DNA of 64,000 bases from Macrosoma leucophasiata (lineage: Eukaryota > Arthropoda > Insecta > Lepidoptera > Hedylidae): the NCBI GenBank assembly GCA_036365455.1, contig JAWQUS010000025.1, forward strand, positions 26,758,001-26,822,000, written 5' to 3'. The notes beneath the pieces are model-generated. The model was not told the DNA's origin. It saw nothing but the letters and a program-made list of their open reading frames with translations, and did not search any database. The first letter of the stretch is position 1; each line of letters begins with the position of its first letter. The position numbers and the translations under genes were made by a program. Positions 1 through 53,200 of this stretch are shown here, piece after piece.

Positions 1-361
1 CGTGGTGTGCAGGGTGGCCAGCAGCGTGCCGGCGGGCGCGTCCTCGGGCGCCACCACACTGTAGTGGGTGCGCGAGAGGAAGCGAGGGAGTGGGAGAGAG
101 AGAGAGAGAGCGTGACGTGACCTGTGCGGCGTGCGGCGTGGTGTGCAGGGTGGCCAGCAGCGTGCCGGCGGGCGCGTCCTCGGGCGCCACCACACTGTAG
201 TGGGTGCGCGAGAGGAAGCGAGGGAGTGAGAGAGAGAGAGAGAGCGTGACGTGACCTGTGCGGCGTGCGGCGTGGTGTGCAGGGTGGCCAGCAGCGTGCC
301 GGCGGGCGCGTCCTCGGGCGCCACCACACTGTAGTGGGTGCGCGAGAGGAAGCGAGGGAGT

Positions 362-394
<33 letters not shown>

Positions 395-1043
395 TGACGT
401 GACCTGTGCGGCGTGCGGCGTGGTGTGCAGGGTGGCCAGCAGCGTGCCGGCGGGCGCGTCCTCGGGCGCCACCACACTGTAGTGGGTGCGCGAGAGGAAG
501 CGAGGGAGTGGGAGAGAGAGAGAGAGAGCGTGACGTGACCTGTGCGGCGTGCGGCGTGGTGTGCAGGGTGGCCAGCAGCGTGCCGGCGGGCGCGTCCTCG
601 GGCGCCACCACACTGTAGTGGGTGCGCGAGAGGAAGCGAGGGAGTGAGAGAGAGAGAGAGAGCGTGACGTGACCTGTGCGGCGTGCGGCGTGGTGTGCAG
701 GGTGGCCAGCAGCGTGCCGGCGGGCGCGTCCTCGGGCGCCACCACACTGTAGTGGGTGCGCGAGAGGAAGCGAGGGAGTGGGAGAGAGAGAGAGAGAGCG
801 TGACGTGACCTGTGCGGCGTGCGGCGTGGTGTGCAGGGTGGCCAGCAGCGTGCCGGCGGGCGCGTCCTCGGGCGCCACCACACTGTAGTGGGTGCGCGAG
901 AGGAAGCGAGGGAGTGAGAGAGAGAGAGAGAGCGTGACGTGACCTGTGCGGCGTGCGGCGTGGTGTGCAGGGTGGCCAGCAGCGTGCCGGCGGGCGCGTC
1001 CTCGGGCGCCACCACACTGTAGTGGGTGCGCGAGAGGAAGCGA

Positions 1044-1076
<33 letters not shown>

Positions 1077-1327
1077 CGTGACGTGACCTGTGCGGCGTGC
1101 GGCGTGGTGTGCAGGGTGGCCAGCAGCGTGCCGGCGGGCGCGTCCTCGGGCGCCACCACACTGTAGTGGGTGCGCGAGAGGAAGCGAGGGAGTGAGAGAG
1201 AGAGAGAGAGCGTGACGTGACCTGTGCGGCGTGCGGCGTGGTGTGCAGGGTGGCCAGCAGCGTGCCGGCGGGCGCGTCCTCGGGCGCCACCACACTGTAG
1301 TGGGTGCGCGAGAGGAAGCGAGGGAGT

Positions 1328-1362
<35 letters not shown>

Positions 1363-1371
1363 TGACGTGAC
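1..1371. repeat. Tandem array 1: cadherin exon 7 end plus (AG)n, ten further copies
   Basis: The unit is 134-150 bp. Counting the functional exon end, copies start at 1, 137, 271, 419, 555, 689, 825, 959, 1103, 1237 and 1387. Each contains the last 73 bases of exon 7 (minus strand), the same candidate donor, a run of AG dinucleotides and about 30 unique bases. The unit length varies mainly through the AG run. On the minus strand the AG run reads as a CT-rich tract ending CACTACAG, so every copy has an acceptor-like and a donor-like site. The array continues past the window edge. Confidence 0.95.
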
Positions 1372-1560
1372 CTGTGCGGCGTGCGGCGTGGTGTGCAGGG
1401 TGGCCAGCAGCGTGCCGGCGGGCGCGTCCTCGGGCGCCACCACACTGTAGTGGGTGCGTGAGAACCGCAGCGGCTGGTCCCCGCCGCCCCCCCCGCCCCC
1501 GCCGCCCGTCACGCCAACGGTGGCGAGCGCGTAGCGGTCTGGGTTGTCCACTTGCGTCGC
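1372..1560 (-). CDS. Cadherin exon 7: end of EC3 and start of EC4, 3' end uncertain
   Basis: Acceptor TTTGCAG lies before 1560. The reading frame gives ATQVDNPDRYALATVGVTG, nine glycines, then DQPLRFSRTHYSVVAPEDAP and GTLLATL. The VAPEDAPAG motif starts a new EC domain. The donor is uncertain: CAG|GTCACG at 1371 is weak, and each of the tandem copies to the left carries the same candidate. The real 3' end could lie in another copy or outside the window. Confidence 0.75.
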
Positions 1561-4500
1561 CTGCAAAAATTATCTGCCGTTGTCGCCGACCCACAGAGCG
1601 ACACGGGCCACCGGCCGACCGGCGGACCGGAGGGGAGCAGCCATATTATTGAGGAACGCCTGCATGGCTTTCCTCTCTCTCAAAGTACGAGCACGAGTGA
1701 CTCTGGTGCCTGTCGCTGAGATGTTTAAATGTGTGCGTGAAATTTTGTATTTTGTAAGGTGTAAAAATCGTCTCTTAATACGAAATTCACATTTCGTTTT
1801 AATAGACGATTTTTGTTGGGTTGACAGACTGTTTCGTCTTGCATCGGTGATAAACGCTATGGTTACTCCCCTCCGATCGGCCGATGACCCGTGTTGCTCT
1901 ATGACGCCGACCAAATAAAAGTCAAAATACTGCAAAGGAATTATTAAACGATTTAGTAATTTTACTATGTAAAAAATCAACAAATATAAATGCTACAAAT
2001 ACACGTGAAATCCAACCGACCTTAACGACGAGCGTGAGCGGCAGTCCCTTGGAGTCCAGCAAGTTCTGCGTGACCCGCAACACGCCCGTGTCCTTGTCCA
2101 CCTGCACCAGGTGGGCCGCTTCCCCCGTCGTGGAGTATGTTAATGGTGCATTGATGCCTACGTCTTGGTCCACTGCCGAGATTGGCCCGGGGGAAGTTTC
2201 TAGAACTGTGCCCTGCGAATTTATTGTAGCTGGTTAAAAACCGTGAATAAGAGTGTTTCTAAAAGAAATAAAAAGTAAACATAAGTGTTCGTAATTTTGG
2301 TCCTTTTTTTCGATGCAATCATGCATGTATTCTGTAGCTTATAGGGAACCCTTACAGTTTCGTCTTATTTGTGGACTGGTCGATCGTCGGCTGCGACGGG
2401 CGGTGCGGGCGCTAGGGTCGGTACCCACCTCCTGCGCGGCGTGGGGCACGGTGGCGGTGCGGGCGCTAGGGTCGGTACCCACCTCCTGCGCGGCGTGGGG
2501 CACGGTGGTGGTGTAGGGTCGTGCGGGCGGTGCGGGCGCTAGGGTCGGTACCCACCTCCTGCGCGGCGTGGGGCACGGTGGCGGTGTAGGGTCGTGCGGG
2601 CGGTGCGGGCGGTGCGGGCGCTAGGGTCGGTACCCACCTCCTGCGCGGCGTGGGGCACGGTGGCGGTGTAGGGTCGTGCGGGCGGTGCGGGCGGTGCGGG
2701 CGCTAGGGTCGGTACTCACCTCCTGCGCGGCGTGGGGCACGGTGGCGGTGTAGTGGTCGTGCGGGCGGTGCGGGCGGTGCGGGCGCTAGGGTCGGTACCC
2801 ACCTCCTGCGCGGCGTGGGGCACGGTGGCGGTGTAGGGTCGTGCGGGCGGTGCGGGCGGTGCGGGCGGTGCGGGCGCTAGGGTCGGTACTCACCTCCTGC
2901 GCACCGTCCGGCACGGTGGCGGTGTAGTGGTCGTGCGGGCGGTGCGGGCGGTGCGGGCGCTAGGGTCGGTACTCACCTCCTGCGCACCGTCCGGCACGGT
3001 GGCGGTGTAGTGATCGTGCGGGCGGTGCGGGCGGTGCGGGCGCTAGGGTCGGTACTCACCTCCTGCGCACCGTCCGGCACGGTGGCGGTGTAGTGATCGT
3101 GCGGGCGGTGCGGGCGGTGCGGGCGCTAGGGTCGGTACTCACCTCCTGCGCACCGTCCGGCACGGTGGCGGTGTAGTGGTCGTGCGAGAAGCGCGGGTTC
3201 TGGTCGTCGGCGTCGAGCAGCTGCACGGCGAGCGTGGTGTCGTTGTGCAGCGGCGGCGAGCCCTGGTCCTGCGCGCGCAGCGTCACCGTGAAGTTGCGCA
3301 CGCTCTCGTAGTCCAGCGGCTTCTTCACCACCAGCGTGCTGTCCAGCTCGTTCGCGAACCCGATGTACTCCTGCAAACGTCATTGACTCCTTTAGCTCCC
3401 GAGTTTTAAGTACCTAGGGCGCATAATACACCGATAAGCGCTCAAAATATTGAACTTGTGCCTGCGTATCCTGAACGATTCTGTACCTGTGTTCGATTAC
3501 TCGTAATCATGCTGTGCGTTGTTAACTAACTTTGCCCGCGTGCAAAACTAAAGGAACCGGGCGTGCAAGCCAGCGATCGGTCGTGGGTCGGAGGACAGGG
3601 CCCGTGCCGGGGACGGAAGGCGGCGGGCGGCGGGCGGTACTGACCGAGTGCGGGCCGGGCAGCACGGCGTAGTGCACGGTGGCGTGGGGCCCGGGCTGGT
3701 CGGGGTCGCGCGCGGGCGCGGCCAGCTGCGGGCGGTACTGACCGAGTGCGGTCCGGGCAGCACGGCGTAGTGCACGGTGGCGTGGGGCCCGGGCTGGTCG
3801 GGGTCGCGCGCGGGCGCGGCCAGCTGCGGGCGGTACTGACCGAGTGCGGTCCGGGCAGCACGGCGTAGTGCACGGTGGCGTGGGGCCCGGGCTGGTCGGG
3901 GTCGCGCGCGGGCGCGGCCAGCTGCGGGCGGTACTGACCGAGTGCGGTCCGGGCAGCACGGCGTAGTGCACGGTGGCGTGGGGCCCGGGCTGGTCGGGGT
4001 CGCGCGCGGGCGCGGCCAGCTGCGGGCGGTACTGACCGAGTGCGGTCCGGGCAGCACGGCGTAGTGCACGGTGGCGTGGGGCCCGGGCTGGTCGGGGTCG
4101 CGCGCGGGCGCGGCCAGCTGCGGGCGGTACTGACCGAGTGCGGTCCGGGCAGCACGGCGTAGTGCACGGTGGCGTGGGGCCCGGGCTGGTCGGGGTCGCG
4201 CGCGGGCGCGGCCAGCTGCGGGCGGTACTGACCGAGTGCGGTCCGGGCAGCACGGCGTAGTGCACGGTGGCGTGGGGCCCGGGCTGGTCGGGGTCGCGCG
4301 CGGGCGCGGCCAGCTGCGGGCGGTACTGACCGAGTGCGGTCCGGGCAGCACGGCGTAGTGCACGGTGGCGTGGGGCCCGGGCTGGTCGGGGTCGCGCGCG
4401 GGCGCGGCCAGCTGCGGGCGGTACTGACCGAGTGCGGTCCGGGCAGCACGGCGTAGTGCACGGTGGCGTGGGGCCCGGGCTGGTCGGGGTCGCGCGCGGG

Positions 4501-7500
4501 CGCGGCCAGCTGCGGGCGGTACTGACCGAGTGCGGTCCGGGCAGCACGGCGTAGTGCACGGTGGCGTGGGGCCCGGGCTGGTCGGGGTCGCGCGCGGGCG
4601 CGGCCAGCACGCGCGCGCCCACCGCCGCCAGCTCGGAGAGCGCGGCGCGGTAGGGCGCGCCCACCCACGCCGGCGCGTTGTCGTTCACGTCCCACACGCG
4701 CACCGACACGGGAATCACGAAACTCTGCAATAAGAAGAAAAAGCATATTCGTTTTAAAACGTCACTGACTGTGTTAAAATTTTAGTAGTTTGTCCTGGTT
4801 CTCATTGATGGTTGTTATTACATTGGATTGGTAGATAAAACTTAAATATGTAATATTTTGTATAAAACTCTCATTTGGATCACAAGATAACCGAACTCAT
4901 TCGGGCTTATAACCCTCAAAAAAATAACAGCTTACGTTGGCATAGACGCTCGAAGGACCGAATCATTCCACCCGGGTGGAATGATTCGGTCCTTCGAGCG
5001 TCTATGCGAGAAGCCAGAGACAGAGCGCGAAGCAGCGCGATGATTTCGGTACCAACCGCGATGCCGCAACTTATGTCGCCATCTTCTTCTCACTACCACA
5101 TACAGGATTCATATTAAGATCTGTGTTTTCACCCCAGTCACAAAATAGACTTACAGGATCAGTCGTATGGCGTCTATCGCAGCGTACGTTGACATAGACG
5201 CTCGAAGGACCAAGTCGTTCCTCCCGGTCGAGAGCACGCAGCAGCGTGATGTTCTTGGTGCCGGCCGCGATGCCCACCGCCGCGCCTCTCTCCTGGATGC
5301 GCAGCGTTATGTCGCCATCGTCTTCGCTCGGGTTCCCATTCACGCTAAGGGTTCCTGGGATGGATAATGGGAAAATTTGAGTGGACCTAAGTATACAGCA
5401 TTTGCATATTTCGTTCACATGGTTATTAAACAAAACTTACGTGTTTTAATTTCATAAAGATAAAGGTCTTCATAAACACGCACAAAGTCACCATATCATG
5501 TTAATTTTTTAATTATACCTACTAACAGAAAGTTAAAATGTAATGTGTGCCCGAAAAAATCTGGAGATATGATTGAACCTCCAACAAATAAGATAACTAA
5601 TTTATTCACTTACCAATTACGCTACCAACTGGTGTATCCTCGCTGATGAAGAAGCTCTCCACCGCGCCCCCATTCATCAGGTAACACCGACTGTCCTGGA
5701 TCGCTGCGCATAATGTTCAACTTTTTGAAATGTTTCTAAATCATATATTTTTAACAACTCTAAAAAAGCTTCAATCGCTTATGATATTATTTGTCTAATA
5801 CATTTTAATTTAACGTAAAATATAAAAAAAACGTTTTGTGTTTATTATTTAGAGGTGAGCGCAAAAATGTGAAATAGCACATAAATTAAAATTCAATTTA
5901 AAAATCAGATATCAAATAATTAAGACGTGACAAGTAGGTAACTATCGCTTCTAAATACAAAATGTTAAGTATACAAATTATATTCTTGGATCTTTGATAT
6001 ATTTCACTATAGTTAATCTTTTTTACCTAGATGCTTTCAATGATCTAAGTAAATAATACTTATGTCTCTTCACGCCAAGTCCCTTACAGGGTAGGCTGAG
6101 AGTGTGGAGCGCGGAGCGTGGAGCATGGAGCGACCAGATATTCTGATCTTGACACACCTCCCGTGCTCCTTCTACATTCATCATTCTCTTTGTACATAAT
6201 AATAGGTACGTCGATTTCTAATACTAAGTTAGTATATAAAACCTAAAGTAATTTACGAATGTAAGACATGTAGGTAGTTTAATTTGTGCTTTCAAAATAT
6301 TCTTTGAACGTGCTCGTCTACACCTACCAATCACTGTGTAGATTATACGAGTAAGTAACCGTTATCATTTCTGATGTCTTTCAACTACAAAAAAAATAAA
6401 AACTATAATCATCGAAAAATTTTAACGATTGAAAGTATGTGTGCACATTTAAAAAACAATCCAATAAGGCAAAAGTACATTCTAACTATGAAAAAGTAAA
6501 AGCAAGTACCTATTTGAAAGCACATTCAGTAATAAAACAAAACGTGATAAAAACAGTAATTGGTATTGACGAATATGCTTGTATGAATAGTTGTGCAGGT
6601 AACGATGACGCTGCAAAAGATACCATTACAACGGAAGCGATGGAAGCAAACAGTATAGATATTAAAGCTTGTATCGAATAGGGTGAGTGAATTAATGTAG
6701 TGGAAACGAAAGAGGGTCATCTATCCGGGGCGGACATTGGCCGGGCAACAAAATTATTTGATTTGAATAGTATCAGGTGGGTTGAGCGCGATATTCTTAG
6801 ATATATTCCTATGATATTGTATTGGACTCTGTATGAGACGACCATGTGGAAACTTGCAAATAATTGACTATCATCGCATCGAATCCGAAGGCGATACAAA
6901 AACATGTCTACTTATAAGTATGTATACTTTCGTTATTAGAAAACGAATAAAATAAAACTGTTATTTTGGGATGTAATTACACGTTTCATTAAGTAAAACC
7001 TATGTTATAGAGTCCAAGTTGTATTTCGATTGTCTATTCTTTATACATAAAATATTGATTTTCGGTACCAAAAATAATATAATTACTCAGAATCAGAAAA
7101 GATCGCTCTACCGTTTCGATCTCGATCATTATAATGAAAATTAACGAGCATGTATTTTACTCAGATAGTTTTGGTGTTAGCATAGCTCTAACAAAACTGT
7201 GGACCTACATGATTTAACTTTATAGAACTAAAAAACTTAAAGTGATGCGGTGTGTAAGCATATGAACTTAAATGCAATCAAACGAGCCCGAAAAAAACTT
7301 AACATTGAGAAAATTAAATGCATCCCGTTTGCAGCTATAAACGTAGCCAAAAAGAAATCGAGAGATCGGAAACGAGTTGTTATTAGAATAAAAAGTGGAC
7401 GCGTCATAAATCACGCTACAATTACAATAATAAGATGTAATAGTGGAGAACTTTCCCGCGACCCGGCCGACCTGACGTTCGCACGATCGGATCTCATCAT

Positions 7501-13500: not shown

Positions 13501-16500
13501 TGTCAGCCTGCTAACGTTTAGTAAACCTAGATTGACTAAATAAATTTATTTGCGAAGTGCAATAACAGTAATGACGTTACTTATATGAAAAGTTAATTTG
13601 AAATTGATTAAATCTACACACGTATAGGCAGTTAATTGCTCCACATACAAATAAACATGACCCGCTTACAAAGATGACTTTGCGTTCAATTTGCTTCGTC
13701 CGGGTTCAATCACCACATCAAATGATAATGCTGCTATAATAATATCAAGACCAGAGTGTGATGTACTACACAGTTAATTAGAAAAAGAAATTCCAAGAAA
13801 TATTAAAATATGGACATTAATTACTGTAATCGATTAGAAAATAACGTAGCTTTACTGTAGCGGCGCGGGGACGGTGATAAATTAAGTGGACTGTATATTA
13901 TTATTAGGGGTGGTTCCCAGGGATGGATGACAAAAAGGAATTCTGGAAACGTACGCACCTACCTTGTTCATCTATTCTTCAGTCTGGACTTGGTGCATGG
14001 CGGCGGTGGCGTGGCGATCCTTTATCCGCGTTTATTCACGTAATCACCACACATATGATTATTTGTTTATCACAATAGTTTATAGGCCTTTTATTTTATT
14101 GAAATTTTATAATATTTTTACACACACGAGGTAAAACAGCGGTTACAGCGAAATAAAAGCACGAAGCGCGAACAGCGGAGAGCAACGGCGGATGATGACA
14201 GACGGTGTCTTAATGTTCGGTGCGCACAGGAAGGTGGGAGAGGAAAAATACAGGAAATAAGATCTACCCCCAAGTATTTATAATAACGGCGGTAACATTT
14301 CCCCCAGCCTTAAAGGGTCACCTTTAAAAAAAATAAAAAAATAAAAAATAAATAAAGAGAGAAAATTGACTCTTTGACTGCGAAATTATAATATATACTG
14401 CGTTGTATGTACTGCGGTTATGTATTTACTGCGGTGCGGTAAAATTATTAAATAAACTAAGTAAACTGCGGTATATTAATTTAGAAACTATTGGCTAGGT
14501 AAAGGGCACAACTTAACTACCGGCCGCACAAAGCTACCCTTAGAGGTCCGTAGGGTTACAACGCGGGTTGATCCATCCTTAGATGGATGTACGTCTTCCA
14601 CGACACCTAGTGGCCATGAAAACGGCGGTAAATTATCTAAGATAAGTACCACTACGGTACCAACCTTAATAGGGACTGCATGCGTCGTCCACTTGGAACG
14701 AGATTGTAACTGGTGCAGATACTGCATACGCCAGCGTTTCCAAAAAGATTGAACCATTTGATCTAATAGGGTATGCCTTTGAAGCAGATTCTGCGAAGTC
14801 GGTTCTACTACCGGCGCTGGTAGTGAAAAAAGCGGAGCGGTGTTAAGGAAGTGCGCGGGTGTCAGAGCAGAGGGCTCTGAGGGATCACTGCTCAAAGCAG
14901 TGAGCGGACGAGAATTAATAAGCGCTTCAATCTGCGTTAAAACGGTTAATAATTCCTCATAGGATAATATTTGTTGCCCTATAACCTTGAAAAGATGAGT
15001 CTTTACGACTTTTACCATGCTTTCCCAGCAACCGCCAAAGTGCGGAGACGAGGGAGGTATGAGTTTCCATTTGATGCGGTTTTCAGCGAGTTCAGTTTCC
15101 AAATTTGATCTAAACTCGTCAAGAAATTTATACAGGTCGCGCAAGTATGAGCGAGCGCCTATAAAATTAGTACCATGGTCCGAGTACATACATTGTACTG
15201 GACCGCGTCGCGAAAGAAATCGCTTAAAAGCGGCAAGAAAGGCAACAGTACTCATATCAGTAGCTATTTCTATGTGAATAGCTCGAGTGGTAAGACACGA
15301 AAATATGCAAAGCCAAGCTTTGCGACTCTTGACTCCACGAGCGCGATATGGTGTATAATAAAGCGGGCCTGCGTAATCGCAACCGGTGTGTGAAAACGCC
15401 TTAACCATTTGATTAACGCGTTGGCTAGGCAGATCTGCCATGATCGGGAATGTGGTATGCGGTCGAGATCGGAAACAAGTGTTACACTTATTTATTCTTT
15501 GACGAATAACACTGCGAGCGGCTAGTATCCAGTAGTTCTGCCTAAGTAACGACATGAGTAATTCAGGTCCTGCGTGTAGGTATTTTTTATGATACATATC
15601 AATAAGCAGATCTATAATATGATCATTACGCGGCATTACGTATGGATGTTTATATTCATAATTTTCTAAAGAATTTGATAGCCGACCACCAACACGGATA
15701 AGGCCATTTTCATCTAAAAACGGCTTTAATTTAAGTAATGTGGATGAGCAAAGATCGTTATTATTTATTTTAACAATATCTTCAGCGAAATAAATATTCT
15801 GAAGAACGCGAATTAATTTTATTTCAGCGAATTTAATATCTGAACTTGAAACTGCGGTATTACCGGTACGTGGTAATATTTTTGCAAAGCGGTAAATATA
15901 AACTATTATGCGTAACAACTTTGAATAAGACGAAGTACGTTGTGATAACGAATATAACAGCGATTCATTACTATTAGTGGTTGTAATATGTATATTCAAT
16001 TTTTGTTCAGGAATTTCATTTAAATAAATATTATTTATATTATTTATGGGCCAATCTGAAGGATGGCTACTCATCCACGGTGGTCCGTGGAACCACAGCG
16101 GATGATTTATTAATTTAGCGGGTGACAGTCCTCGAGAGAGGCAGTCTGCAGGATTTTCTACTCCTGAAATATGGTAGAAACTACTAGAAGGCACATTATC
16201 TATTATTTTTGTGACCCGATTTGCAACAAACGTTTGCCAGCGATGCGGAGAAGCGTTAATCCAACATAAAACTACTTTCGAATCACTAAATGCGTAAATG
16301 TTATCTATTTTATAGCGGTTGTTATAATTATCAAAAACTAAGCGGAGTAATTTGGATAACAATAGTGCAGCGCAGAGTTCCAGTCGTGCGACTGTAAGAA
16401 CCTTTAACGGCGATACCTTTGACTTTGCGCACACGAGTTGGACGGATGTGGCCTCGGGTGTGGTGATGTGCATGTACACTACTCCACCATACGCTCGTTC

Positions 16501-19500
16501 ACTCGCGTCAGCAAAGCCTACAAGCGTTACTACGCAGTCATCTAAAACTCCCAGGTGCCGCGGGATACGAATCTCGTTCAGTGCGGGTAGTTCAGCGCAA
16601 AACTTATTCCAGGTAGCAACAATATTATCAGGCGGACTGTCATCCCAGTCACACTTCAAAGTCCAAAGTTCCTTTACAAGAAGTTTGGCATGCAGTATGA
16701 CTGGAGCCGCGAAACCTATAATATCCCACAACCTTGCGATTGTAGATAATATAGTGCGTTTTGTGCAATGTTCGCTGGGGGCGTTTACTTTGAAATAAAA
16801 AGAATCACTGGATTGATCCCAATGCAATCCTAAAATTTTTTGCTGAACGGATTTGTCGAACTCAATGTCCGAAAGCGACCTGTGAGATGCGGGTATGGTA
16901 TGTAAGACCGACTGCGAGTTGCTTATCCATTTGACCAGGTCAAATCCACCGGCTCTGAACAAATGGATAAGTTGTTGACTTGCTTCAATAGCTTGCGGTT
17001 CATTCATTATACTAAACACTATGTCATCCGTATAAAGCGATTTAGAAACGATATCTACTGCGGCAGGGTACCTATGTCCCTCGTCTAACACGAGCTGCTG
17101 GATTACACGGAGCGCTAGGTAAGGACTAGCCTTAATACCGAAACACACTCTAGCAAACTCGTAGACTTGCAATGCGTGAAGCGGATTAAATCTATATAAG
17201 ATTCGTTGAAAACAGCGGTCAGGTTCTCTAATACCTATTTGTAAATACATTTGACGACAGTCAGCGGACAGCGCTACAGCGAATAATCTAAAATTTAATA
17301 TAATTGAAAATATGTCGCCTTGTAAATTAGGGCCAGCGTGCATCAAATTATTTAAGGAAACTCCGGTAGATGATTTACAACTAGCGTCTAAGACTACTCG
17401 AAGTTTGGTAGTCGCTTTGTCGTTCCGTATAACCCCGTGATGCGGTATATAATAATTAGGCTGTGACATATAGTCAATGCCAGTCACGGGAAATAAATAC
17501 TGTTTGTCTAAGTACTCGCGCATGACGTCATCATATGCTATACGTAAACTCGGCGAAGACTGCAATTTATTTTCTAAACAAAGAAAACGTTTTTTAGCGA
17601 CGGTGTATGAATCACCTAATTTACCTAGATTGTCATTAAACGGCAGCGCAACAATATACCTACCACTCTCGTCTCGTACAGTGGTAGTGCGGAAAAAATC
17701 TTCACATTGGAGATCATCTTTATTTTTTGCGGGCAGAGATGAGACTTCTTCAAGCTCACAGAATCTCTTAAATAGCTTGTCCATGGACTGGTCCACACTG
17801 GTACAACACAATGTTGTATGCGGGTTATAATTGGGTAACGCGGGAATCGAACCCACAATTACATAGCCTAAGACAGTATTAATTACGGCAGGCGAATGCT
17901 TGCTTATCACCTTACCTGGTAAAAGCAAGTGCGGGAATAACGTGGCTCCAATTAAAATATCAATTGGTCCGGGAATATTATAACTTTCATCTGCGAGTGC
18001 GATTGCATTTAAATGCGACATCATAGAGGTGTCTACAGGAACCGTAGGTAAATTATCAGTTATGTTATCAATAACAAGCGTTGAAAGGGTGTAAGAAATG
18101 GTTGAGTTAAAACGCGAATGAATTTTAATATTTATACAACCCTTTATTGGTTTCTCTGACCCACCGATACCTCTCACCATAAAGCTAGAATTTAAATAGT
18201 TCGTTATACCTAAACGTTTGCAGCAATCCTCTGTAATAAAGTTGCTTTGAGACGCACTGTCTAATAAACATCTCATCACGTGTTTATTTCCCAGTGAATC
18301 GTATAAAATAACTTGCGCGGTCGCTAGTAGCACGATGGACGGCGAAGCGCATTCGTTAGGTACAAGCAATCTATCATGACACTGTGTACGAGCGGTGTTA
18401 ACTGCGGCTGCACACAATAATGCATCGGCAGCGTTATCAGTTATCCGCGTGTGCGGCGTAGGCGCATGTTGTTCTGAAGTGAGGACAACGGGACGCGAGG
18501 GCGACGGCGGCGGGGATGAATTACTATGCCTACGAGGCGAGCGGGAGGAATGACGTAGCGAAGAAACCGGTTTGCTATTAAAATGTAGCAACGAATGATG
18601 TCGCCTATTACAAGTTCGACAAGAACTATTTGAATTGCAATTAAACACTTTATGCTTATTACTTAAACAGTTGATACATGAATTATTTTCTTTTATATAT
18701 TTAAAGCGTGCGGAAGACGAAAGCGAATGAAACTGCGGGCATTTATAGTAATGATCGTGAATGTTATTATCACATAAGCATTTGACGGGAACTGTTGAAG
18801 TAATATAGGTTTGTAACTGCGGAGCGGACGGTTTCCTATGCGGCTTAGCACTGACAGCGGTACCTGTGACGCGCGAATTATTATGAAAAGTAGATGAGTG
18901 CATGAATACTTTATGCTGTTTACGTATAAAACTAGATAGATCACTGAACTTAGGTAACTCATTGTTCACCAAACTGTTTTCGAAAGCGTGAATCGTACCA
19001 GTGTCTAATTTTTTAATAGAAATATGAAACAACATAAAATCGGCCAAGTTATCAATTTTTAAGTTAACTAATGCGTTTACGGCGGTGACTATTTTATCAA
19101 TGAAATATTCATAGTTAGCAGCGGATGCGGGACCAGTTAATTTTGTATTGAATATTTGATCAATATAAGAAGAAGCGATACAGCGAGTATCTTTATAGCG
19201 ATCAGTTAATGAATTTAAAATGATGTGGTAGTTATCACCACACGGCGAAATATCAGCAAATGTACTTTGTACTTTGGGAGACAGCTTCCCAATTAAATAA
19301 TAAAGTTTCTCGTCGTTAGTTAACGAATTATTGTCATCAACTGTAGACTTAAAACTAGCGTAAAACAAGGGCCATTTTTTGATGTCACCATCAAATGATA
19401 TTAGTTCAATAGGAGGTAAAATAGGCCTACGAGACGGCGTGGAAGAATTATTGCTATTAACAGCGGTATTGTTATTAAATTGACTTGCAGTCCTTTTAAT

Positions 19501-22500
19501 ATAGCAAAATAAGTCCTCAGCGGATGAGTATGCGTGGTAGTTAGGAATTGCCTTAGGATTGCTAATTAACAAAGCGTTATTATATTGATCTAAGGTTTCT
19601 ATGAATTCAGATCTTAGATCATTAATAGTTTCAATAGAATTTAAGAACTTGTCTTTATTCTCCACGCTCACATGAACTACTTTAGCCCTATCATATATTT
19701 CTTGAATACGCGAAAACAAAGCATTGCGTTTTGATTGTAACATAATAAGTTTAATGTTAGATTCGGACTCCATGGCATCGCCATACAAGGAACCCTCATC
19801 TTGATTCTTTTCAGTTTTTTTTGAAGTCATAATTTGACTGTTATAAAACTGTTACAAATAATCAAAATAAATAAACACTGCGATAAAGTGACCCTTAAAG
19901 ATGGGAAAAAACAGCGATACTAAAACCGATTCGACCAAAAATGAGGTAGGTAGGTACTCTAAATCGGGCTCGAAATGGACCAACAAATGTAGCGGCGCGG
20001 GGACGGTGATAAATTAAGTGGACTGTATATTATTATTAGGGGTGGTTCCCAGGGATGGATGACAAAAAGGAATTCTGGAAACGTACGCACCTACCTTGTT
20101 CATCTATTCTTCAGTCTGGACTTGGTGCATGGCGGCGGTGGCGTGGCGATCCTTTATCCGCGTTTATTCACGTAATCACCACACATATGATTATTTGTTT
20201 ATCACAATAGTTTATAGGCCTTTTATTTTATTGAAATTTTATAATATTTTTACACACACGAGGTAAAACAGCGGTTACAGCGAAATAAAAGCACGAAGCG
20301 CGAACAGCGGAGAGCAACGGCGGATGATGACAGACGGTGTCTTAATGTTCGGTGCGCACAGGAAGGTGGGAGAGGAAAAATACAGGAAATAAGATCTACC
20401 CCCAAGTATTTATAATAACGGCGGTAACATTTACTGTAATCTAACGGGGCAGTAGGTGCTTGCTAATATAATGTGAATTATTCATAACTGGATGAGTGTT
20501 AAAGACATGAAATGAAAATTTTGAGTGCCATCAAATGTCCAAAGTAAATAAATATTTATATAAATCTATGACTGTAAGGAGATAAACAATTAAATTTTAA
20601 TTTAATTTCCACAGTGAATTATTTATTAACTATGACTAGTAGACAAACTGTGCCGTAAATGGAAATTATTTAGGTATGGTATTGTAAATTGTTAAATATT
20701 TAACAATAAGATCATTTTGTGTAAAAAAAAAACAAGAACTTAAGAAACAGGAACAATTTACAGAGGTACTTTTACAAAGCGTACTGGCCGGGTGCCTATT
20801 GGAATGGGAGCCTAATGAACTAACCGTCTTTTACAAGTTTAATGAAATTTTTTCAGTCCTAATATCCATTATCGTTACGAGTCAACGTTTGCGTGAATGT
20901 TAAGTTATGTTTTATGTAGATGTTTATAAGCTACAGTCCACTTACCATCAGAGTAGACTGTATGCTTGTTTGAAACTTCGTGACATAAAATAAATATATC
21001 TTTAAACAAAGTTCCAGAACAATCAAAATGTTTGTTTTAAACTAACATACTTGCAAATGTTGTATCAATCTGATACATATAAAGTATTGCAGCACCAGCG
21101 GACGCGCGGGTGAATCTCGTTACGAGGAATTTAGTGGTGTTGCGTAACGCGAAATTATTTTGCGAAGAAGCGTAGCGAATTAATGTTAAACTAGCATAAA
21201 ACTCGGCCAATGAACAGTTTGTACCTACGCCGGAGATAAATCCATTGTCACAGAGCCCGTATTTAATATTGCTGTTCAAATTACTATTTTAATTGCATAA
21301 TCCAATAATGCTACGGTCACCTCTTCTGTGTCTAATCGTATTTTAACAAAATGAAACTGTTGAAAATTGAATGTATAATCAACATTATCTTATCAATAAT
21401 GAAATAAAACGGCACTTCAAAATAAATGTTTAAGAACTTTCTACCTCGCCATGAAACTAGTTGACGGTTATAATAATATTTTATGGTAAACTTATTGCAT
21501 AAAAAAGATACATTTATTATAAAAATACCAATCTCATCAGTGACCATTGTAATGTACTTAGTGTTATTGATTTAATATAATTACTTATCTCGTAAATTGG
21601 TGAGAGGAAGCGGCAGTAACTTGTTAGAAGGAAGTAAATGGTACACATACGAACTTACAAACAATGGATTTCCGACATCTTAAACGATGGAATTTACCTT
21701 TGTGAGGCGCTAAAGGCTACTACACTCCTGACGACGTATGCCCAGCAACGAATACTGCCATTGACAAACTTCAAAAAAGGAGGAAGCTTCATCTTGACTA
21801 TTAGTATATTTTTATGTAGGTATGTTCACCAATTACTCCTTCAATATTGGATTGATTTTGAAAATTCTTGTGCTGTTTGAAAGAGAATACTTTGAAGTTG
21901 GTCCCATTTTCAACAAGTTGGGATCTGATGATGGTCTCACGGGGAAATCGAGGGAATCCCTCAAATTTTTGTTGGATTGTTTGGATAGACGTGTAAGTTA
22001 TTTATCGAGAAGACGGTATTTTTTAAAAGCTTTTGTAGATATCCATGAGTTAGTGCATTCGATGAATGTATGCACTTGATTTAATGAATGGGCAGAAGAT
22101 GGGTTTAGAAAAGCTATTGGGGTAACTGTACTATCAAATCAAAAATGATATGGCACCGGAAGCTATTTACAATAACAAAGCTGATGGGACATTTGCCGGT
22201 CGATTGAGCACAGTAAAACAGACGGTATTGTACGAGACTGGTGCATGACCGATGTAGGTGGGGGCCGATACGGAGCGGTGCAATATCTAATTAATGTGTG
22301 CTGAACTGTTTGCTGCAGAGTGCATAGACATGCCACTCGGACATTCACTAGGCCGTAGCGGGCGAGTAGTGGGCAGTGAAACAAAACCTAAGACACATGG
22401 TTATGGTTTTTGATATTTCTTTAACTTCACATTTTCTTTTTAAAAATAAAAAAATCAATTGCTGTTCGTTAGTCTCGCTGAAACTCAAGAACGACTAGAC

Positions 22501-35502: not shown

Positions 35503-35510
35503 TATACAAC

Positions 35511-38383: not shown

Positions 38384-38421
38384 TCATACGTTTTATATTT
38401 GGTTCGATTTATGTAATGTAG

Positions 38422-41552: not shown

Positions 41553-41900
41553 GCAACCCATTATACGTCCCACTGCTGGGCACGAGTCTCTCCCCTTTTT
41601 TGGGGGAAGGCCTGGAGCTTACTCCACCACGCTGCTCCAATGCAGATTGGTGTAGATACGGTTAGTGGCCAACCCGCAGTCGGATGTTTTCGAACTGCCC
41701 ATAAGGCCTCTGACAAGGATTAACGACTGCTATCTACCGATAGCAACCGGGACCGGAGGCTTAACCTGCCCTCCGAAGCACGGAAACGCGCATTTTTTAA
41801 ATTAACCACTAGCGCTCACCCATCACACACCCGACCGCGCCCGTAACGCTTAGCCGAGTAGATCGCTTCCGATATACACTAGCCACGGGGCCATGCGCGC
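41553..41900 (-). mobile_element. RTE-like LINE 3' fragment
   Basis: The minus strand reads a GGAGAGACTCGTGCCCAGCAGTGGGACG-type 3' end, seen on plus as CGTCCCACTGCTGGGCACGA. It shares this with the plus-strand copy at 61517-61665, and upstream 3' coding relics (GGAAGGCCTGGAGCTTACTC) are present. Confidence 0.65.
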
Positions 41901-42739: not shown

Positions 42740-42838
42740 CTACCCTATGGTTGACTGGGAGAGAATGCCATATGGCATTAAGTCCGCCATATGTACAAAT
42801 GTTCAATGTGCATTAAAGATTAAATAAATAAATAAATA
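42740..42838 (+). mobile_element. LINE 3' tail with (TAAA)n
   Basis: GACTGGGAGAGAATGCCATA, TGGCATTAAGTCCGCCATAT and ATTAAAGATTAAATAAATAA form a 3' tail of a kind widely repeated in Lepidoptera. The coding part is absent. Confidence 0.5.
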
Positions 42839-43377
42839 TATTCTTAGTAAGATAGTAATGAATTGCTTTCGTGTTACTATCATCCGTTACATAATTATAT
42901 TTCTAGGGATATAACTTTATTAAGACTTTATCTATCATACTGTGACATACCTATATAAAAATCAATTAATTGCTGTTTGTTAGCCTCGCTAAAACTCGAG
43001 AACAGCTTTGCCGATTTGGCTAAAGAAGTTTATTTTCTTATATAAGTAGGTACACACACTTTTTTTTTGCTTCCGTTAGGCTGTTGTTTAAAAAAATGTC
43101 AACGATTTGATTGTTTTTCGACAAAAAAAAATCCGGTAAGAATTTTATATTTTTGACTTTAAGAGTTGGCAACCCTATACAATGTCAATGTCATTTACGT
43201 GAATGAAATTGTCAAACGAATTACGAAGTCAAGCAGTGCCTACATTTTTTGTTTTCTTTCCTTTTTCAGATTTACAGAAAACTAAACTATTTCATTTAAG
43301 AAACTCAGTGATGCCATTATTGCGCAGCGTTTGGTGGTCTCATTGAGTTATTGCCAGTGCAGTCGACATTTCCCACA

Positions 43378-43943
43378 ATGGCTGAATCTGGGGAAGCGGA
43401 CAGTAGGAAAGAGGTCGAGCTTCCCGACAAGAGTTCAATAAAGTTAGAGATAGAGGAGGTGAAGAGAGAGTTCGAATGTGTGGTGTGTGTGGGCCGCTGC
43501 TCCGATGGATACGAGGTGCAAGGCGCCGCCACCACCGCCGGCACCCCTATGCTGCATTACATCTCCAAACTAACACAAGTTGAACTAGACGGAAACAACT
43601 GCACAAAACACTTCTGTAAAAACTGTTACGACCTCATCAATGTATTGGAACATGCTGAACTTGAGTACATGAAGCTAAAGGAGACTTTTGAAGCTATCAT
43701 TAGTAAAAACCCGCTGTTTGTGACCAGTGCTCTTCCAGTGAATGTCGTGAATGTGAAAAATGAGACGGATGAACAGTTCACGGTATCGGATGACAATGTT
43801 GATAATGATGATTCAGAGGATGAACCACTAGCGTTGACTAAGAAGAAACGTCACCGGAAAGTTGATAAACGAAAAAAGAAAACCATAACACCTGTAACTA
43901 AAAAAAAACTTCGCACCAAGCTAAATAAAGTAGTAAAAGACAG
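43378..43943 (+). CDS. Zinc-finger exon 1: ZAD domain
   Basis: ATG at 43378 is followed by 188 codons and a donor GTAAAT in phase 2. The ZAD cysteine pairs CVVC and CKNC flank a LHYISKLTQVELDGNNC core. An acidic stretch (DDNVDNDDSEDE) and a Lys/Arg block (KKKRHRKVDKRKKK) end the exon. Confidence 0.93.
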
Positions 43944-46900
43944 GTAAATCATAGTGATTTTCTATAATTAAACATTTATTGAAAAAGTGAGATTTGTAAA
44001 AAAGAAAATTTAAATAAAAAAGTTACCTAGTTCCATATAGTATGAGCTACAACTGCAATATGTGATCGTATCTCGCACTATTGTAATGCTTATTATAATA
44101 TGACAGAACTCTGTTAGCTTGACTAATTAAATCATTCTCATAAGTTTTTTTTTAATCTTATTGTAACATACATCAAGAGCAATGTATATCACATTACAAT
44201 AAGATCACACAAAAAATGTATTTGTAACAACAACAACTAAAATGATGGCTACACATGTAACTTTTTTTTATATGTAAAGAGGGCGGCAAACAAGCATGCA
44301 GCTCACATTGATGTTAAGTGATGACTGCACCTTAAAGACGTCTACACAAAAACCAGGAGTCGCAAATGCAGATACGCTGCCACCCCCGAGACAAAAGTTG
44401 TTGTCTCTGTGCATATACACATATATTACCATCTAGCCCGAACAAAAAAACAACGGTCAAAAATCAAAATATGCAATACATGGATTATAATGACTAACAA
44501 GCAAAATATAGTTCTAACACTAGACATATATTAACATTAAAAAGTGCTAGCTTCTGTCGCCAAACTAAGTGTGAACTAGTGAAATATGAATAACTATAAA
44601 TATGCTACCAGCGATGGTAAGAAAAGCTATATTTGACTGATTTTCGATAAGTGGAGAGTTCCCTGATTGTACTCATGAGTAAACCGGTCCAAAATAGCAC
44701 TAAAAAACTTATTTAATTGACAAAAAAAAACTGAATTTAAGTGATTATTTTTCTAATGTATTTGGAACTGCTTTACACTGATTACAGTTATATATTTACC
44801 AATGATTGCAACCCTAGTTGCTGCTTTATTAAAAACTGTTGTGATAGTAATTATTTTTGTATTTAATCTAGTTGGGAGTGCAATATGTGCGGACTGAAAG
44901 GAGAGAGTGGGGGCGAGGCGATGTTGGCAGTCCACTTGGCAGCGCACACCCTCATGCTGAATTCTACAACCGCTCCAATGGTTAAAAAGGAAGATTCACC
45001 TACCAGGTACTATAAATCAATCAATATGTGTAAAACTCATTTGTCACGGACGGATTGAGTTGCTGTAATTTGTATGTCACTGTGTCTGGAATTATGTAAA
45101 CAAATACTGGGCAAAAGCTTCTTGTTTATTATTTTATAGCTTTATCTAAATTAATATGCGTTTTGAATTGCAGGAATTTATTTATGTAAATGCCAACTGC
45201 TTTCTCATTGTTGTTATTGGTGGTACTAAGTAGTATATTAAGGGTCCTTGTTGGCTTCTACATTATAAACAACTAAGTAGAAGTTTCAATGCAGTTACAC
45301 GACAATGACAATTCTATGGCATCACATATTTTGTGCCTGCGGTTGTAAGTAATCAAAAAAAAAAAAGGTTAAATAAAAAGTCCAATTGCATATTTTTTTT
45401 TAAATTAGAACTAATTTTATTTTTTGACATGTTTATTTATTTACTCCATATGTCCTAATAATGCATATAGGTGTGAAAGTTACATTATATTAATGTGTAC
45501 TTACAACGGTCCGCAGATCGCAGAGCCCGGCGGACAGCGTGTTCAACGTGTTCAAGCTGGAGGCGGAGGTGGAGTCGATGGACGACGACGACAGCTCGTG
45601 CTTCACGCCGCAGCCCGCGGCCGCCGTGGCCAACGGCAGGCCCGGCAGGCCCGGCAGGCGCGGCCGCCCGCCCGGCTCCACCAAGACAGATAAAAATGAT
45701 GTCCAGAAGAAACGGCCCGCCAAAGTCGTGCATCACTGCGACCAGTGTGACGCCAAGTACTGTAATATATGTGAGTTGCTTCATTTTTAATGTTAAAGTC
45801 GACGTGAGGCCGAGCCCCTATTATATCGGATGGGTCTGCAAATGCGCTAGATCGACACGTAATGCGACACCCGCCGACGACATCATTGATCTGTTAATAT
45901 ATTGTACAGCTCCCGTGCATCTTCTTTTATGTGCAATTTTTATGTGTTCTAGACCGGTTGCAGCAACACAAGCTGAAGAAACACGACGACTCGAAACCGC
46001 CTTACATCTGCGAGGTGTGCGGCGCGCACTACAAGCACAAGCGGGCCTGCGACATACACGTCGCCATGCACAAAGGTAGCCACAATACACACCACACTGC
46101 GACACACAACACACCTTAGGAGACCATGCAGGTGTCTGCTGACTGACAGCTGCATGGTCTGCTAAGCTGACAAATTTGTATTGGGCTTTCCGCAATGTTC
46201 AAGGTGGAAAGCCAAAAATTGATATGCGGCCTCTTTGTTACTAAAAAAAACAACGTTTACTTGATATTTAAATTTTTTTGGAAATCTGCCCCATACCCTA
46301 TCATAGGGGTTGGCAATTTGTAGGGAGCATTCCACAATTTCAAGGGAGAAAGTTGAAACTTGGTATGTGGACTCTTTGAGCCTAATAAATAATTACGTAC
46401 ATAATTTTTTTTTGTAAATCTGCCCCACCCCCTATCATATGGGGTGGCAATTTGTAGGGAGCATTCCACAATTTTTAAGGTTGAAAGTTGAAACTTGGTG
46501 TGCGGACTCTTTTAGCCTAACAAATAATTTCGTACATAATTTTTCTTGGACACCTGCCCCCTTCCCCTAACAGAGGGGGTAAAATTTTGTATTGGACTTT
46601 TGCCAACAATTGGTATCCGGACTCTTTGTTACTAAAGAAAACAACGTTAAAGTTCTTAAATATACACTTTTTGTTTAGAAATCTACTCCAACCCCTTTAA
46701 GAGAGGAGTTGATAGTTTGTGCCGGTATTTTGTCAGTTTTTAATGCCGTTTTTTATGTCGTGAAAGTGGCAAACAAGCATGCAGTTCACATTGATGTTAA
46801 GTGATGACTGCAGCCTATAGACACCCACACAAAGATCAGAGGTCAAAATGCAGATGCGTTACCACTTCTGAGGCCTACGGTGTTATGCCTCTGTGCCCGA

Positions 46901-49829
46901 AATTACAGGGCCGTACATTACCTCCTGACCGGAACACGATAGTGCTGAACACTACCATTTAGCGGCAAGAATATTAGGGTAATTCGGCGGTACCTACGCC
47001 CGCGAGCTGCTTCACTGGAGCTCCACCACCAGAAAAATTGCTTTTTTGAAATTTGCCTGAAAATTGGTTAACGGGCTTCTTATGTTTTGTACGAAAAATA
47101 GTTGCATCAATAATTTTTTTTAAATGTTCCTCCACACTCCTAAAAATGGGTAATAGAAATTGGTATGGGACTTACCGCAATTTTCAAGGTAGAATATTAG
47201 TGAACGGGCTCTTTGGTACAAAAAAAAAGATAAAGCAATAAAACAAATATTAATACTCTTGGCAAAAGATAAGAAGCAGTGTTACCCATGGCCTTTGATA
47301 AATGGGGTCACAAGTTTTTTAAAACGCGCTAACGCTGTCTTCTTGATCTGCACTTAAGTCGGAGCAGCGGTCGCGCTACCTTTGCTCTGAGTTAGACGGT
47401 TAATTCTACATTGATTATTTATTTGCTTTTGATTTTGTTATTGTATACGAAAATGTTATATAAAACTACTGTTCCTAGACCCTTAAAATTTGGAACAAGG
47501 GTTCCTTTCATGATGTATAAGAAAGGATTAGTAGAGATAAATGTAAAGGACTATATCACAACAGGTATAAGCATTTTGGATTACAATAAAAATTGATCTG
47601 TGTAGACGAAATGGACAAATTCTGTCCTAAAGGGGGAAAATGAAGTGGTAATTTTTTTATGGAAAGTTTCTCATTCCTGAACTAAACAGTATAAAAACAG
47701 GCTCATGATTAGGAATTGTAAAAATGATCTGTTTAAGTGAAATGGACAAAATTTCCCCCTAAAGCGGCAAAATGGAGGGGTACTGTTTGTATGGAATTGA
47801 GGTTAAAATTTGCGTGGGAATTTTGGTAGTTTCTAAGTTAGAGACTTGAAAAGTGATGTTCCAGTCTTTCTGTTAGGTATAAAAAAATAGGTACGTATAA
47901 TCACCCCTAAACTTTCAAATATACGGGTTTAAAATTAAATAGAGATTTCTAAGTTATAGACGTGATTAAGAACTCCACATATAGGTACGCGACGGGAAAC
48001 TTGATTAAGACATTTCCATGGGATAAAATTTAAACTATTTATAAAATGAGACCCACGCGGGCGAAGCCGCGGGCAACAGCTAGTTCATTAATAACTTTAA
48101 AAACACTGGTATGCGCTCCTGCGAAAAACAGATATTGACAATTAAATTAATGATTACAGGGATAAGCGATTGGAAATGTGAAGAGTGCAATAAATTGTTC
48201 CCGTCAAAGAGCGCGCTGCAGAGGCATAACAATATACACACTGGCAAATTGAATTATCAGGTATGTTTTCTATGGTGCCACTTATCCTCATAAACTCTAA
48301 TTAAATGCACTAATGTCTGTGAAATGGAAGTTATAAAATTTTTTCTCTATTTCTTTACCAGGTGTGTAACTTAGTTCAGTTCTATTTGTGTGATTATTGC
48401 GTACTTGTACTAACTAATTAAGTGTATTTGTAACATGGCGTGTTTGTTGCAGTGCGACCTGTGCGGCAAGTCGTTTATCCACACGTCGTCCTTCAAGATG
48501 CACAAGCTGTCGCACTCGGGCGTCAAGCCGCACGCCTGTGACGTGTGCGGCCTCGCGCTCATGACGCGCTCGCACCTCAAGCGCCACAAGCGTGTTCACA
48601 GCGGCGAAAAGCGCCACGAGTGCTCCATCTGCGGCAAGCGTTTCTCCGAGAGGTAACTGCGGCCAGTGCTCGTACTTCAAGCGCTACAAGCGCGTGCACA
48701 GTGGTGATAAGCGCCACGAGTGCTCCACCTGCGGCAAGCGTTTCTACAAGAGGTAACTGCGGCCAGTGCTCGTGACGCGCTCGCACCTCAAGCGCCACAA
48801 GCGTGTTCACAGCGGCGAGAAGCGCCACGAGTGCTCCATCTACGGCAAGCGTTTCTCCGAGAGGTAACTGCGGCCAGTGCTCGTACTTCAAGCGCTACAA
48901 GCGCGTGCACAGTTGCGATAAGCGCCACGAGTGCTCCACCTGCGGCAAGCGTTTCTACAAGAGGTAACTGCGGCCAGTGCTCGTGACGCGCTCGCACCTC
49001 AAGCGCCACAAGCGTGTCCACAGCGGCGATAAGCGGCACGAGTACTCCACTTGCGGCAAGCGTTTCTACAAGAGGTAACTGCGCCCAGTGCTCGTGACGC
49101 GCTTGTACCTCTAGCGCCACAAGCGTGTCCACAGCGGCGAGAAGCGCCACGAGTGCTCCATCTGCGGCAAGCGTTTCTCCGAGAGGTAACTGCGGCCAGT
49201 GCTCGTACTTCAAGCCCTACAAGCGCATGCACAGCGGCGAGAAGCGCCACGAGTGCTCCATCTGCGGCAAGCGCTTCTCCGAGAGGTAAATGCGGCCGGC
49301 GCTCGTGACGCGCTCGCACCTCAAACGCCAGGAGCGCGTCCACAGCGTCGAGAAGCGCTCCGATAAGCGGTTATGACGCCCTCGCATCGAGAGCGTCATG
49401 AACGCTCCATCTGCGGTGAGCGTTTTTTCGAGAGGTATCTGCGGCGAGCGCTCGACCGCTCGCATCGAGAGAGACACGAGCACTTCATCTGCGGTAAGTG
49501 TTTTTCCAACAGGTAATCTTCGCGCTCGCCGAGAGCGACGTAAGTGCGTGTAGGTAGGTAAGGTAGAGCCTTAAAAGCGCTTCTAGATATACCTTCATAT
49601 TACTATTTATACATACCCTTAAATATTCTTTCTTCATAATTTTACACACTGCATTTAGAACATATTCTGACGCGATATTTGTTCACAGGTACAACCTGTT
49701 GGCGCACAGCAAGGCGCACGAGGGCGCGGCGGCGGCGCCCCTGCCCGAGCAGGTGCCGCGCCGCCGCCTCTTCCGCTGCCCCTACTGCCAGGAGCGCTTC
49801 GAGAGGCGGTAGGTCGCTCTGTACTGTGA

Positions 49830-49866
<37 letters not shown>

Positions 49867-50168
49867 AGGTACACCCGACACAGCAGGCGCACGAGGGCGC
49901 GGCGGCGGCGCCCCTGCCCGAGCAGGTGCCGCGCCGCCGCCTCTTCCGCTGCCCCTACTGCCAGGAGCGCTTCGAGAGGCGGTAGGTCGCTCTGTACTGT
50001 GAGCGGTGGGCGGTGGGCGGTGGGCGGTGGGCAGGTACACCCGACACAGCAGGCGCACGAGGGCGCGGCGGCGGCGCCCCTGCCCGAGCAGGTGCCGCGC
50101 CGCCGCCTCTTCCGCTGCCCCTACTGCCAGGAGCGCTTCGAGAGGCGGTAGGTCGCTCTGTACTGTGA

Positions 50169-50205
<37 letters not shown>

Positions 50206-53200
50206 AGGTACACCCGACACAGCAGGCGCACGAGGGCGCGGCGGCGGCGCCCCTGCCCGAGCAGGTGCCGCGCCGCCGCCTCTTCCGCTGCCCCTACTGC
50301 CAGGAGCGCTTCGAGAGGCGGTAGGTCGCTCTGTACTGTGAGCGGTGGGCGGTGGGCGGTGGGCGGTGGGCAGGTACACCCGACACAGCAGGCGCACGAG
50401 GGCGCGGCGGCGGCGCCCCTGCCCGAGCAGGTGCCGCGCCGCCGCCTCTTCCGCTGCCCCTACTGCCAGGAGCGCTTCGAGAGGCGGTAGGTCGCTCTGT
50501 ACTGTGAGCGGTGGGCGGTGGGCGGTGGGCGGTGGGCAGGTACACCCGACACAGCAGGCGCACGAGGGCGCGGCGGCGGCGCCCCTGCCCGAGCAGGTGC
50601 CGCGCCGCCGCCTCTTCCGCTGCCCCTACTGCCAGGAGCGCTTCGAGAGGCGGTAGGTCGCTCTGTACTGTGAGCGGTGGGCGGTGGGCGGTGGGCGGTG
50701 GGCAGGTACACCCGACACAGCAGGCGCACGAGGGCGCGGCGGCGGCGCCCCTGCCCGAGCAGGTGCCGCGCCGCCGCCTCTTCCGCTGCCCCTACTGCCA
50801 GGAGCGCTTCGAGAGGCGGTAGGTCGCTCTGTACTGCGGGCGGTGGGCGGTGGTTATTCTGAACGGAAGCGATAAACTTCACGATAACGTCGCCTAAACA
50901 CTGTATTTAATCTGAATTCTGGTTATCGAAACGGCCACTGTAATACGACCGTTCAAAATCATATAGTGATTGATGAGCTACGCCTCTGCGATAATAATTA
51001 TGAGGTTTCGGAAATAATAAAGTTGTTTTGCAGGTACATGCTGGAGCGGCACGTGTCGGTGTCGCACGGGCGCTCGCTGGAGCGGCCGCCGCCCACGCCG
51101 CGCAACACCATGAGCAAGCTGCTCAAGGCGCAGGCGCAGCGGAGGGACGCGCCCCCCGCCCCCGGCCCCCCGGCCCCCGCCGCACACTCCGCACGCTCCA
51201 CCTCAGGTACATGCTGGAGCGGCACGTGTCGGTGTCGCACGGGCGCTCGCTGGAGCGGCCGCCGCCCACGCCGCGCAACACCATGAGCAAGCTGCTCAAG
51301 GCGCAGGCGCAGCGGAGGGACGCGCCCCCCGCCCCCGGCCCCCCGGCCCCCGCCGCACACTCCGCACGCTCCACCTCAGGTACATGCTGGAGCGGCACGT
51401 GTCGGTGTCGCACGGGCGCTCGCTGGAGCGGCCGCCGCCCACGCCGCGCAACACCATGAGCAAGCTGCTCAAGGCGCAGGCGCAGCGGAGGGACGCGCCC
51501 CCCGCCCCCGGCCCCCCGGCCCCCGCCGCACACTCCGCACGCTCCACCTCAGGTACATGCTGGAGCGGCGCAGCGCAGGGACGCGCCCCCCGCCCCCGGC
51601 CCCCCGGCCCCCGCCGCACACTCCGCACGCTCCACCTCAGGTACATGCTGGAGCGGCGCAGCGCAGGGACGCGCCCCCCGCCCCCGGCCCCCCGGCCCCC
51701 GCCGCACACTCCGCACGCTCCACCTCAGGTACATGCTGGAGCGGCGCAGCGCAGGGACGCGCCCCCCGCCCCCGGCCCCCCGGCCCCCGCCGCACACTCC
51801 GCACGCTCCACCTCAGGTACATGCTGGAGCGGCGCAGCGCAGGGACGCGCCCCCCGCCCCCGGCCCCCCGGCCCCCGCCGCACACTCCGCACGCTCCACC
51901 TCAGGTACATGCTGGAGCGGCGCAGCGCAGGGACGCGCCCCCCGCCCCCGGCCCCCCGGCCCCCGCCGCACACTCCGCACGCTCCACCTCAGGTACATGC
52001 TGGAGCGGCGCAGCGCAGGGACGCGCCCCCCGCCCCCGGCCCCCCGGCCCCCGCCGCACACTCCGCACGCTCCACCTCAGGTACATGCTGGAGCGGCGCA
52101 GCGCAGGGACGCGCCCCCCGCCCCCGGCCCCCCGGCCCCCGCCGCACACTCCGCACGCTCCACCTCAGGTACATGCTGGAGCGGCGCAGCGCAGGGACGC
52201 GCCCCCCGCCCCCGGCCCCCCGGCCCCCGCCGCACACTCCGCACGCTCCACCTCAGGTACATGCTGGAGCGGCGCAGCGCAGGGACGCGCCCCCCGCCCC
52301 CGGCCCCCCGGCCCCCGCCGCACACTCCGCACGCTCCACCTCAGGTACATGCTGGAGCGGCGCAGCGCAGGGACGCGCCCCCCGCCCCCGGCCCCCCGGC
52401 CCCCGCCGCACACTCCGCACGCTCCACCTCAGGTACATGCTGGAGCGGCGCAGCGCAGGGACGCGCCCCCCGCCCCCGGCCCCCCGGCCCCCCGGCCCCC
52501 GCCGCACGCTCCGCACGCTCCACCTCAGGTACATGCTGGAGCGGACCAGCGCAGGGACACGCCCCCGGCCCCCCGGCCCCCGCCGCACACTCCACACGCT
52601 CCACCTCAGGTACATGCTGGAGCGGCGCAAGGGACGCGTATCGGTTAAATATTATTATTAAATTGGTATTTATTTATACCTATTGGATAATTATTATAAG
52701 TCATTCTCTCTAGGTAGCTAATAACCCGACAATGCAAAAGTGTCCTTGTAGACCAATTTGATATATTGAATTTTGAATACAACTCAACAAACTTTATAAT
52801 TACTAATTATAACAAAATTAATAAGACAACCCTTCAGAATGATCACAAATTGCTTTTTAAAACATAAAAATAAATCTTTTACACAATTTAATAAAGATTA
52901 CTTACGTAGAATCATATGTAACCACTTATCACTGATGCACACACTATGTACGCAAATCACAACGACCACGACCTAACTGCACAAGATAACACAAACAAGT
53001 GAGCGCGTCATTGCAATGGCGCCTGTTTTTTAGCTTCCTTTATCTATCCTCACCAAACTTTATTTTATTCTCACGTAAAAATAAATTCCTTCCGGGCAAT
53101 TTCGCATACTACAGTGTCTTGGTCCTTCGAGCCGGATATATTTATTTCATGCCTCCTATTGCGAAGGTTTGACCGCCTTTATTCGCTGAACTGCTCTAGC

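Follow-up and report, generated by a model that had tools for sequence, protein, structure and literature searches.

Repeat arrays beginning at the splice donors of coding exons were analysed in a 64,000-nt stretch of DNA from Macrosoma leucophasiata (Hedylidae; GCA_036365455.1, JAWQUS010000025.1:26,758,001-26,822,000, forward strand), hereafter the window. The survey covered the window and 90 kb of flanking sequence from the same 27.2-Mb contig (C25), 154 kb together. Arrays were present at 9 of the 27 donors identified and at none of the 29 acceptors (Fisher p=0.0006, arrays treated as independent), which bears out a first-pass annotation that had seen no array extending upstream from an acceptor. 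These nine donor arrays lie in three neighbouring, unrelated genes, clustered within about 0.1 Mb. We favour the view, with a probability of about 0.58, that they are ordinary minisatellites rich in guanine and cytosine (GC), retained at sites where additional copies go unnoticed by splicing or translation.

Layout of the arrays

Six of the donor arrays (A1-A6) are in the window. A1-A3 are hosted by a Cad96C-type cadherin gene (minus strand) and A4-A6 by a lepidopteran C2H2 zinc-finger gene (plus strand). Exons of both genes flank their arrays within one continuous reading frame. Coordinates are window positions.

1372..1560, minus: cadherin exon Ce, functional copy, donor CAG|GTCACG
1..1463, minus: array A1, exon end, GTCACG donor and CT-rich intron start in units of 134-150 bp
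3143..3370, minus: cadherin exon Cc, functional copy, donor GAG|GTGAGT
2399..3186, minus: array A2, mostly 82-83 bp units (range 54-91), 10 donors
4527..4724, minus: cadherin exon Cb, functional copy, donor TCG|GTCAGT
3630..4608, minus: array A3, ten near-identical 98-bp units
48453..48652, plus: zinc-finger locus segment overlapping the start of A4
48557..49515, plus: array A4, units of 100 and 111 bp with last two steps of 149 and 78, 9 donors
49689..49808, plus: zinc-finger locus segment overlapping the start of A5
49705..50853, plus: array A5, units of 166/173 bp, variable (GGTGGGC)n linker, 7 donors
51034..51206, plus: first (functional) 173-bp exon copy of A6
51034..52641, plus: array A6, three full 173-bp exon copies, then mostly 88-bp units
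54503..54795, plus: GC-rich array of 14 21-bp units in the zinc-finger 3' untranslated region (3'UTR), not donor-linked

The flanking 90 kb yielded four further GC-rich exon arrays (B1-B4). Those on internal exons all sit on the donor (3/3, in two genes): B1 and B2 in a DNAJC3-like gene and B3 in the cadherin. B4 lies on the terminal exon of an acetyltransferase (GNAT) gene outside the window. The six arrays originally described as growing downstream from functional exons are all real, their polarity recurs in adjacent sequence, and the DNAJC3-like gene adds a third host to the two unrelated genes already recognised. All ten exon arrays lie on the transcription-downstream side of their exon.

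Donor-array units measure about 54-173 bp and form rows of 7 to 33 near-identical donors. Eight of the nine donor arrays (A1-A5 and B1-B3) repeat the exon end, the donor and the first intron bases. The earlier description of the unit as the 3' part of an exon with its donor therefore holds for A1-A5 and fails for A6, where the whole exon is repeated and each donor is supplied by the first bases of the next copy. In none of the nine does a unit contain both the polypyrimidine tract and the acceptor of the exon itself. The upstream functional exon leads without interruption into the first copy, which fits the orthologous protein (orthologue alignments, tblastn); for B1 and B2 continuity was judged by reading frame and the match to TPR/DNAJC3.

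Individual arrays differ in extent and homogeneity. A1 runs past the window to C25:26757488, stopping about 0.1 kb before the acceptor of the next exon, and all counted copies in A1 and A3 read open. The distal copies of A2 have diverged, with GTGGGT in 5 of its 10 donors, and divergence in A4 is likewise greatest at the distal end. Units of A5 open with a copied CAG|GTACA acceptor junction. A6 contains 15 CAG|GTACAT junctions, and its copies (51034-52641) each end with a C-rich stretch and CAG|GT, a site that could serve as both acceptor and donor in a recursive-splice-like manner. The B3 unit holds just 12 exon bases, and the donor GT is lost in at least one distal copy. About 0.3 kb beyond B1 lies a diverged relic of its exon-donor unit (C25:26717020-26717100). 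After cadherin exon Ch, CCGCGCCCTC occurs twice directly past the donor (C25:26752815-26752842) in the absence of a recognised array; this repeat is possibly a nascent array.

Two arrays lie at the end of a coding sequence, away from identified donors. The 3'UTR array begins about 40 bp past the zinc-finger stop codon. B4 spans C25:26824190-26826552 (L026), and the reading frame enters its second copy before the stop, so that the GNAT protein may, as predicted from the frame, end in about 30 frame-shifted residues. The acceptor-like TTCTTCTTGCAG is contained in distal copies of B4 and is also present at the 3' flank of the array.

Further features of the window are as follows.

5155..5354, minus: cadherin exon Ca, array-free, donor CCT|GTAAGT
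2021..2212, minus: cadherin exon Cd, array-free, donor AAG|GTCGGT
43378..43929, plus: listed part of the window
61996..62217, plus: acetyltransferase (GNAT) exon G1, array-free, ends set by eye

Additionally, a 1787-residue open frame at 14491-19851 (minus) stands between identical short frames at 13861 and 19993 and by eye looks like a long terminal repeat (LTR) retroelement. Open frames at 59016-61225 and 63604-63999 (minus) resemble, again by eye, non-LTR reverse transcriptases.

A probable splicing filter on local duplications

Under the favoured explanation, the minisatellites would originate when the end of a GC-rich exon is duplicated locally in tandem. Of the donors in a row, the one transcribed first, which is also the closest to the upstream acceptor, would be used, as frame and orthologues suggest, and later copies would remain intronic, where they presumably drift or spread by unequal exchange. 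Conversely, an array on the acceptor side would place the wrong copy first and insert sequence into the mRNA, and a duplication internal to an exon would alter the protein. Copies past a stop codon should be tolerated too; the 3'UTR array and, for the most part, B4 are examples. No mechanism is needed beyond duplication in place with later slippage or unequal exchange, and the variable CT and GGTGGGC linkers are suggestive of slippage.

Several observations fit this scheme. Exons with arrays are on the whole richer in GC (0.62-0.77, n=9) than array-free donor-bearing exons (0.42-0.76, n=18; p=0.002), and the 3'UTR array is GC-rich but contains no donor. Orthologous proteins continue from the end of the first copy into the next exon. 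Use of a later donor in A1-A6 would cause a frame shift or an added stop in 50/55 cases, and in 5/55 (two in A1, three in A3) it would preserve the frame with no stop; 9/55 donor-to-donor steps are divisible by three. The exon-internal repeats of the window (1479-1507, 45634-45664 and 54343-54372) are short, with period 9 according to Tandem Repeats Finder, which reports periods 16 and 25 as well for one of them. The pattern is that expected if any GC-rich exonic DNA can be duplicated in tandem and the duplications persist chiefly where they leave the mature coding sequence unchanged, B4 being a partial exception.

The inference that a shared, donor-linked process is likely does not follow from the layout. 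Polarity cannot prove such a process, since a splicing filter acting on random GC-rich duplications predicts an identical arrangement.

A number of points nevertheless weigh against the filter. Use of the first donor is argued from frame and orthologues, and where identical 5' splice sites stand in tandem, the classical view is that the intron-proximal one can be preferred, an outcome that would do harm in these genes. B4 carries the frame into its second copy and so changes a protein end. A filter alone does not explain why nine donor arrays are clustered in about 0.1 Mb. Array-free exons can be equally GC-rich (Cj 0.76, Ck 0.73, G1 0.73, Ch 0.72), from which it follows that GC content is not sufficient. 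Finally, duplicated acceptors are tolerated in human CBS 845ins68 (PMC2630376) and in potato RNA-dependent RNA polymerase (RdRp; PMC4974935).

Alternative origins of the polarity

The layout might instead reflect duplications made at these places by a mutational process that follows the direction of transcription or is linked to the exon/donor boundary, for example through stalled transcription or template switching, with selection playing a minor part. The excess at donors over acceptors, seen in three genes and on both strands, would be its direct product, and the regional clustering of the arrays also speaks for it. The coding strand is C-rich and the template G-rich in 10/11 arrays (the 3'UTR array included; A4 only slightly), and the most exon-like copies of A2 and A6 are exon-proximal. 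However, the array-free exon ends of the window likewise have negative or zero skew, the 5' breakpoints range from the exon interior to the acceptor junction with no common motif by eye, and the 3'UTR array shows that donors are not required. We regard this process as doubtful. A related proposal, that duplication in GC-rich exons is itself transcription-polarised, regionally or genome-wide, such that exon ends are nurseries feeding the next intron with exon-plus-donor copies, seems to us rather unlikely.

The specific routes offered by the first-pass annotation fared unevenly. R-loops over GC-rich donors are disfavoured, because R-loops need G-rich RNA and the sense strand here is C-rich. An RNA-templated step is contradicted in 8/9 donor arrays, where intron bases within the units rule out a spliced-RNA template (retrocopy). 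A6 alone would fit a head-to-tail copy of the exon, which proves nothing given that its junction also defines the exon end. Microhomology at splice junctions fits A5 and A6 and not the rest; by eye, copy junctions show short or no microhomology.

Base composition alone could in principle generate the polarity if GC-rich DNA crosses the donor and stops at a T-rich acceptor side, restricting minisatellite birth to the donor side. In its favour, GC is 0.58-0.82 right after the donor in the window's six array exons and lower, at 0.32-0.58, before the acceptor in the nine. However, in 13 array-free exons the mean GC is 0.41 in the 50 bp before the acceptor and 0.385 in the 50 bp after the donor (0.33 upstream and 0.37 downstream in the seven inside the window). 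As these flanks match, composition alone does not favour the donor side, and the contrast at array exons is largely the array itself. Furthermore, GC-rich acceptor flanks occur without arrays (E5 0.62, Ch 0.56, E2 0.56), and intron GC past the arrays varies from 0.18 to 0.80. This explanation is very unlikely. As a control, 16 evenly spaced 10-kb stretches were taken from the rest of C25. In this sample, of little weight given that it has hardly any GC-rich DNA elsewhere, GC-rich arrays occurred in two stretches (L016 and L017), by eye in mobile-element-like or non-genic DNA, and AT-rich arrays in three others. Three further local stretches (L031-L033, 30 kb), with almost no GC-rich DNA, contained no arrays.

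Neither function nor assembly offers a convincing account. Rows of competing donors might delay or tune splicing or give alternative 3' exon ends. The GT donor motif is present in counted copies, even those whose exon part is altered (A2, A4), although counting was anchored on such motifs, and A1 and A3 are open through every counted copy. Set against this are the frame shift or stop that 50/55 later donors would bring and the distal B3 copy or copies lacking the donor GT. Moreover, the arrays look young and homogeneous, so that donor conservation says little, and a functional role is highly improbable. Multiplication of copies by the assembler might be suspected from the long identical units of A1, A3, A5 and A6. 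It is improbable to a similar degree because the arrays vary internally in structured ways: several of the ten exon arrays show alternating 100/111-bp and 166/173-bp units, linker microsatellites or distal mutations. The ten are also separate, share one orientation relative to their exons and lie in a contig of 27.2 Mb.

Known systems and implications

The layout of a single array is already known from human CBS. This gene carries a 31-bp variable number tandem repeat (VNTR), c.1444_1467+7(16_21), with 16-21 copies (PMC2630376). Its notation indicates a unit of 24 exon bases and the first seven intron bases, with a donor in each copy, a unit type shared by A1-A5 and B1-B3; it differs in being one short-unit array in one gene, compared with nine arrays in three genes, one with a whole-exon unit. 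In the same gene c.844_845ins68 duplicates the intron 7/exon 8 junction, and the more distal site is used (PMC2630376). Like our arrays under the favoured reading, this is a splice-junction duplication neutralised by splicing, unlike them a single event on the acceptor side, and it demonstrates that duplicating an acceptor does not always do harm. In potato RdRp, an acceptor-side duplication created an extra intron (PMC4974935), an illustration that splicing can respond to a duplicated acceptor. AG|GT copy junctions recur here in A5 and A6 (not in A1-A4), where copies end up intronic; our arrays are carried within the intron with no extra intron evident, whereas the potato case adds one.

In the open-access literature searched, we found no description of clustered donor-side arrays in insects. 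GC-rich minisatellites and VNTRs in general have GC-rich units, near-identical copies and higher-order structure. The arrays here resemble them in units, copy identity and higher-order structure, and depart from them in that all ten exon arrays occupy the transcription-downstream side.

If only a splicing filter acts, the cluster would be a natural experiment on 5' splice-site choice, in which the first of 7 to 33 near-identical donors is taken and the selection rule (transcription order, exon definition or proximity) could be measured in living animals. A mutational origin of the polarity would amount to a transcription-linked route to intron growth and minisatellite birth, for which we know of no precedent. 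Near-identical coding exon ends kept beside the exon also mean that gene conversion could rewrite the exon end. Under either reading, GC-rich lepidopteran exons may have a predictable place at which gene models and short-read assemblies go wrong.
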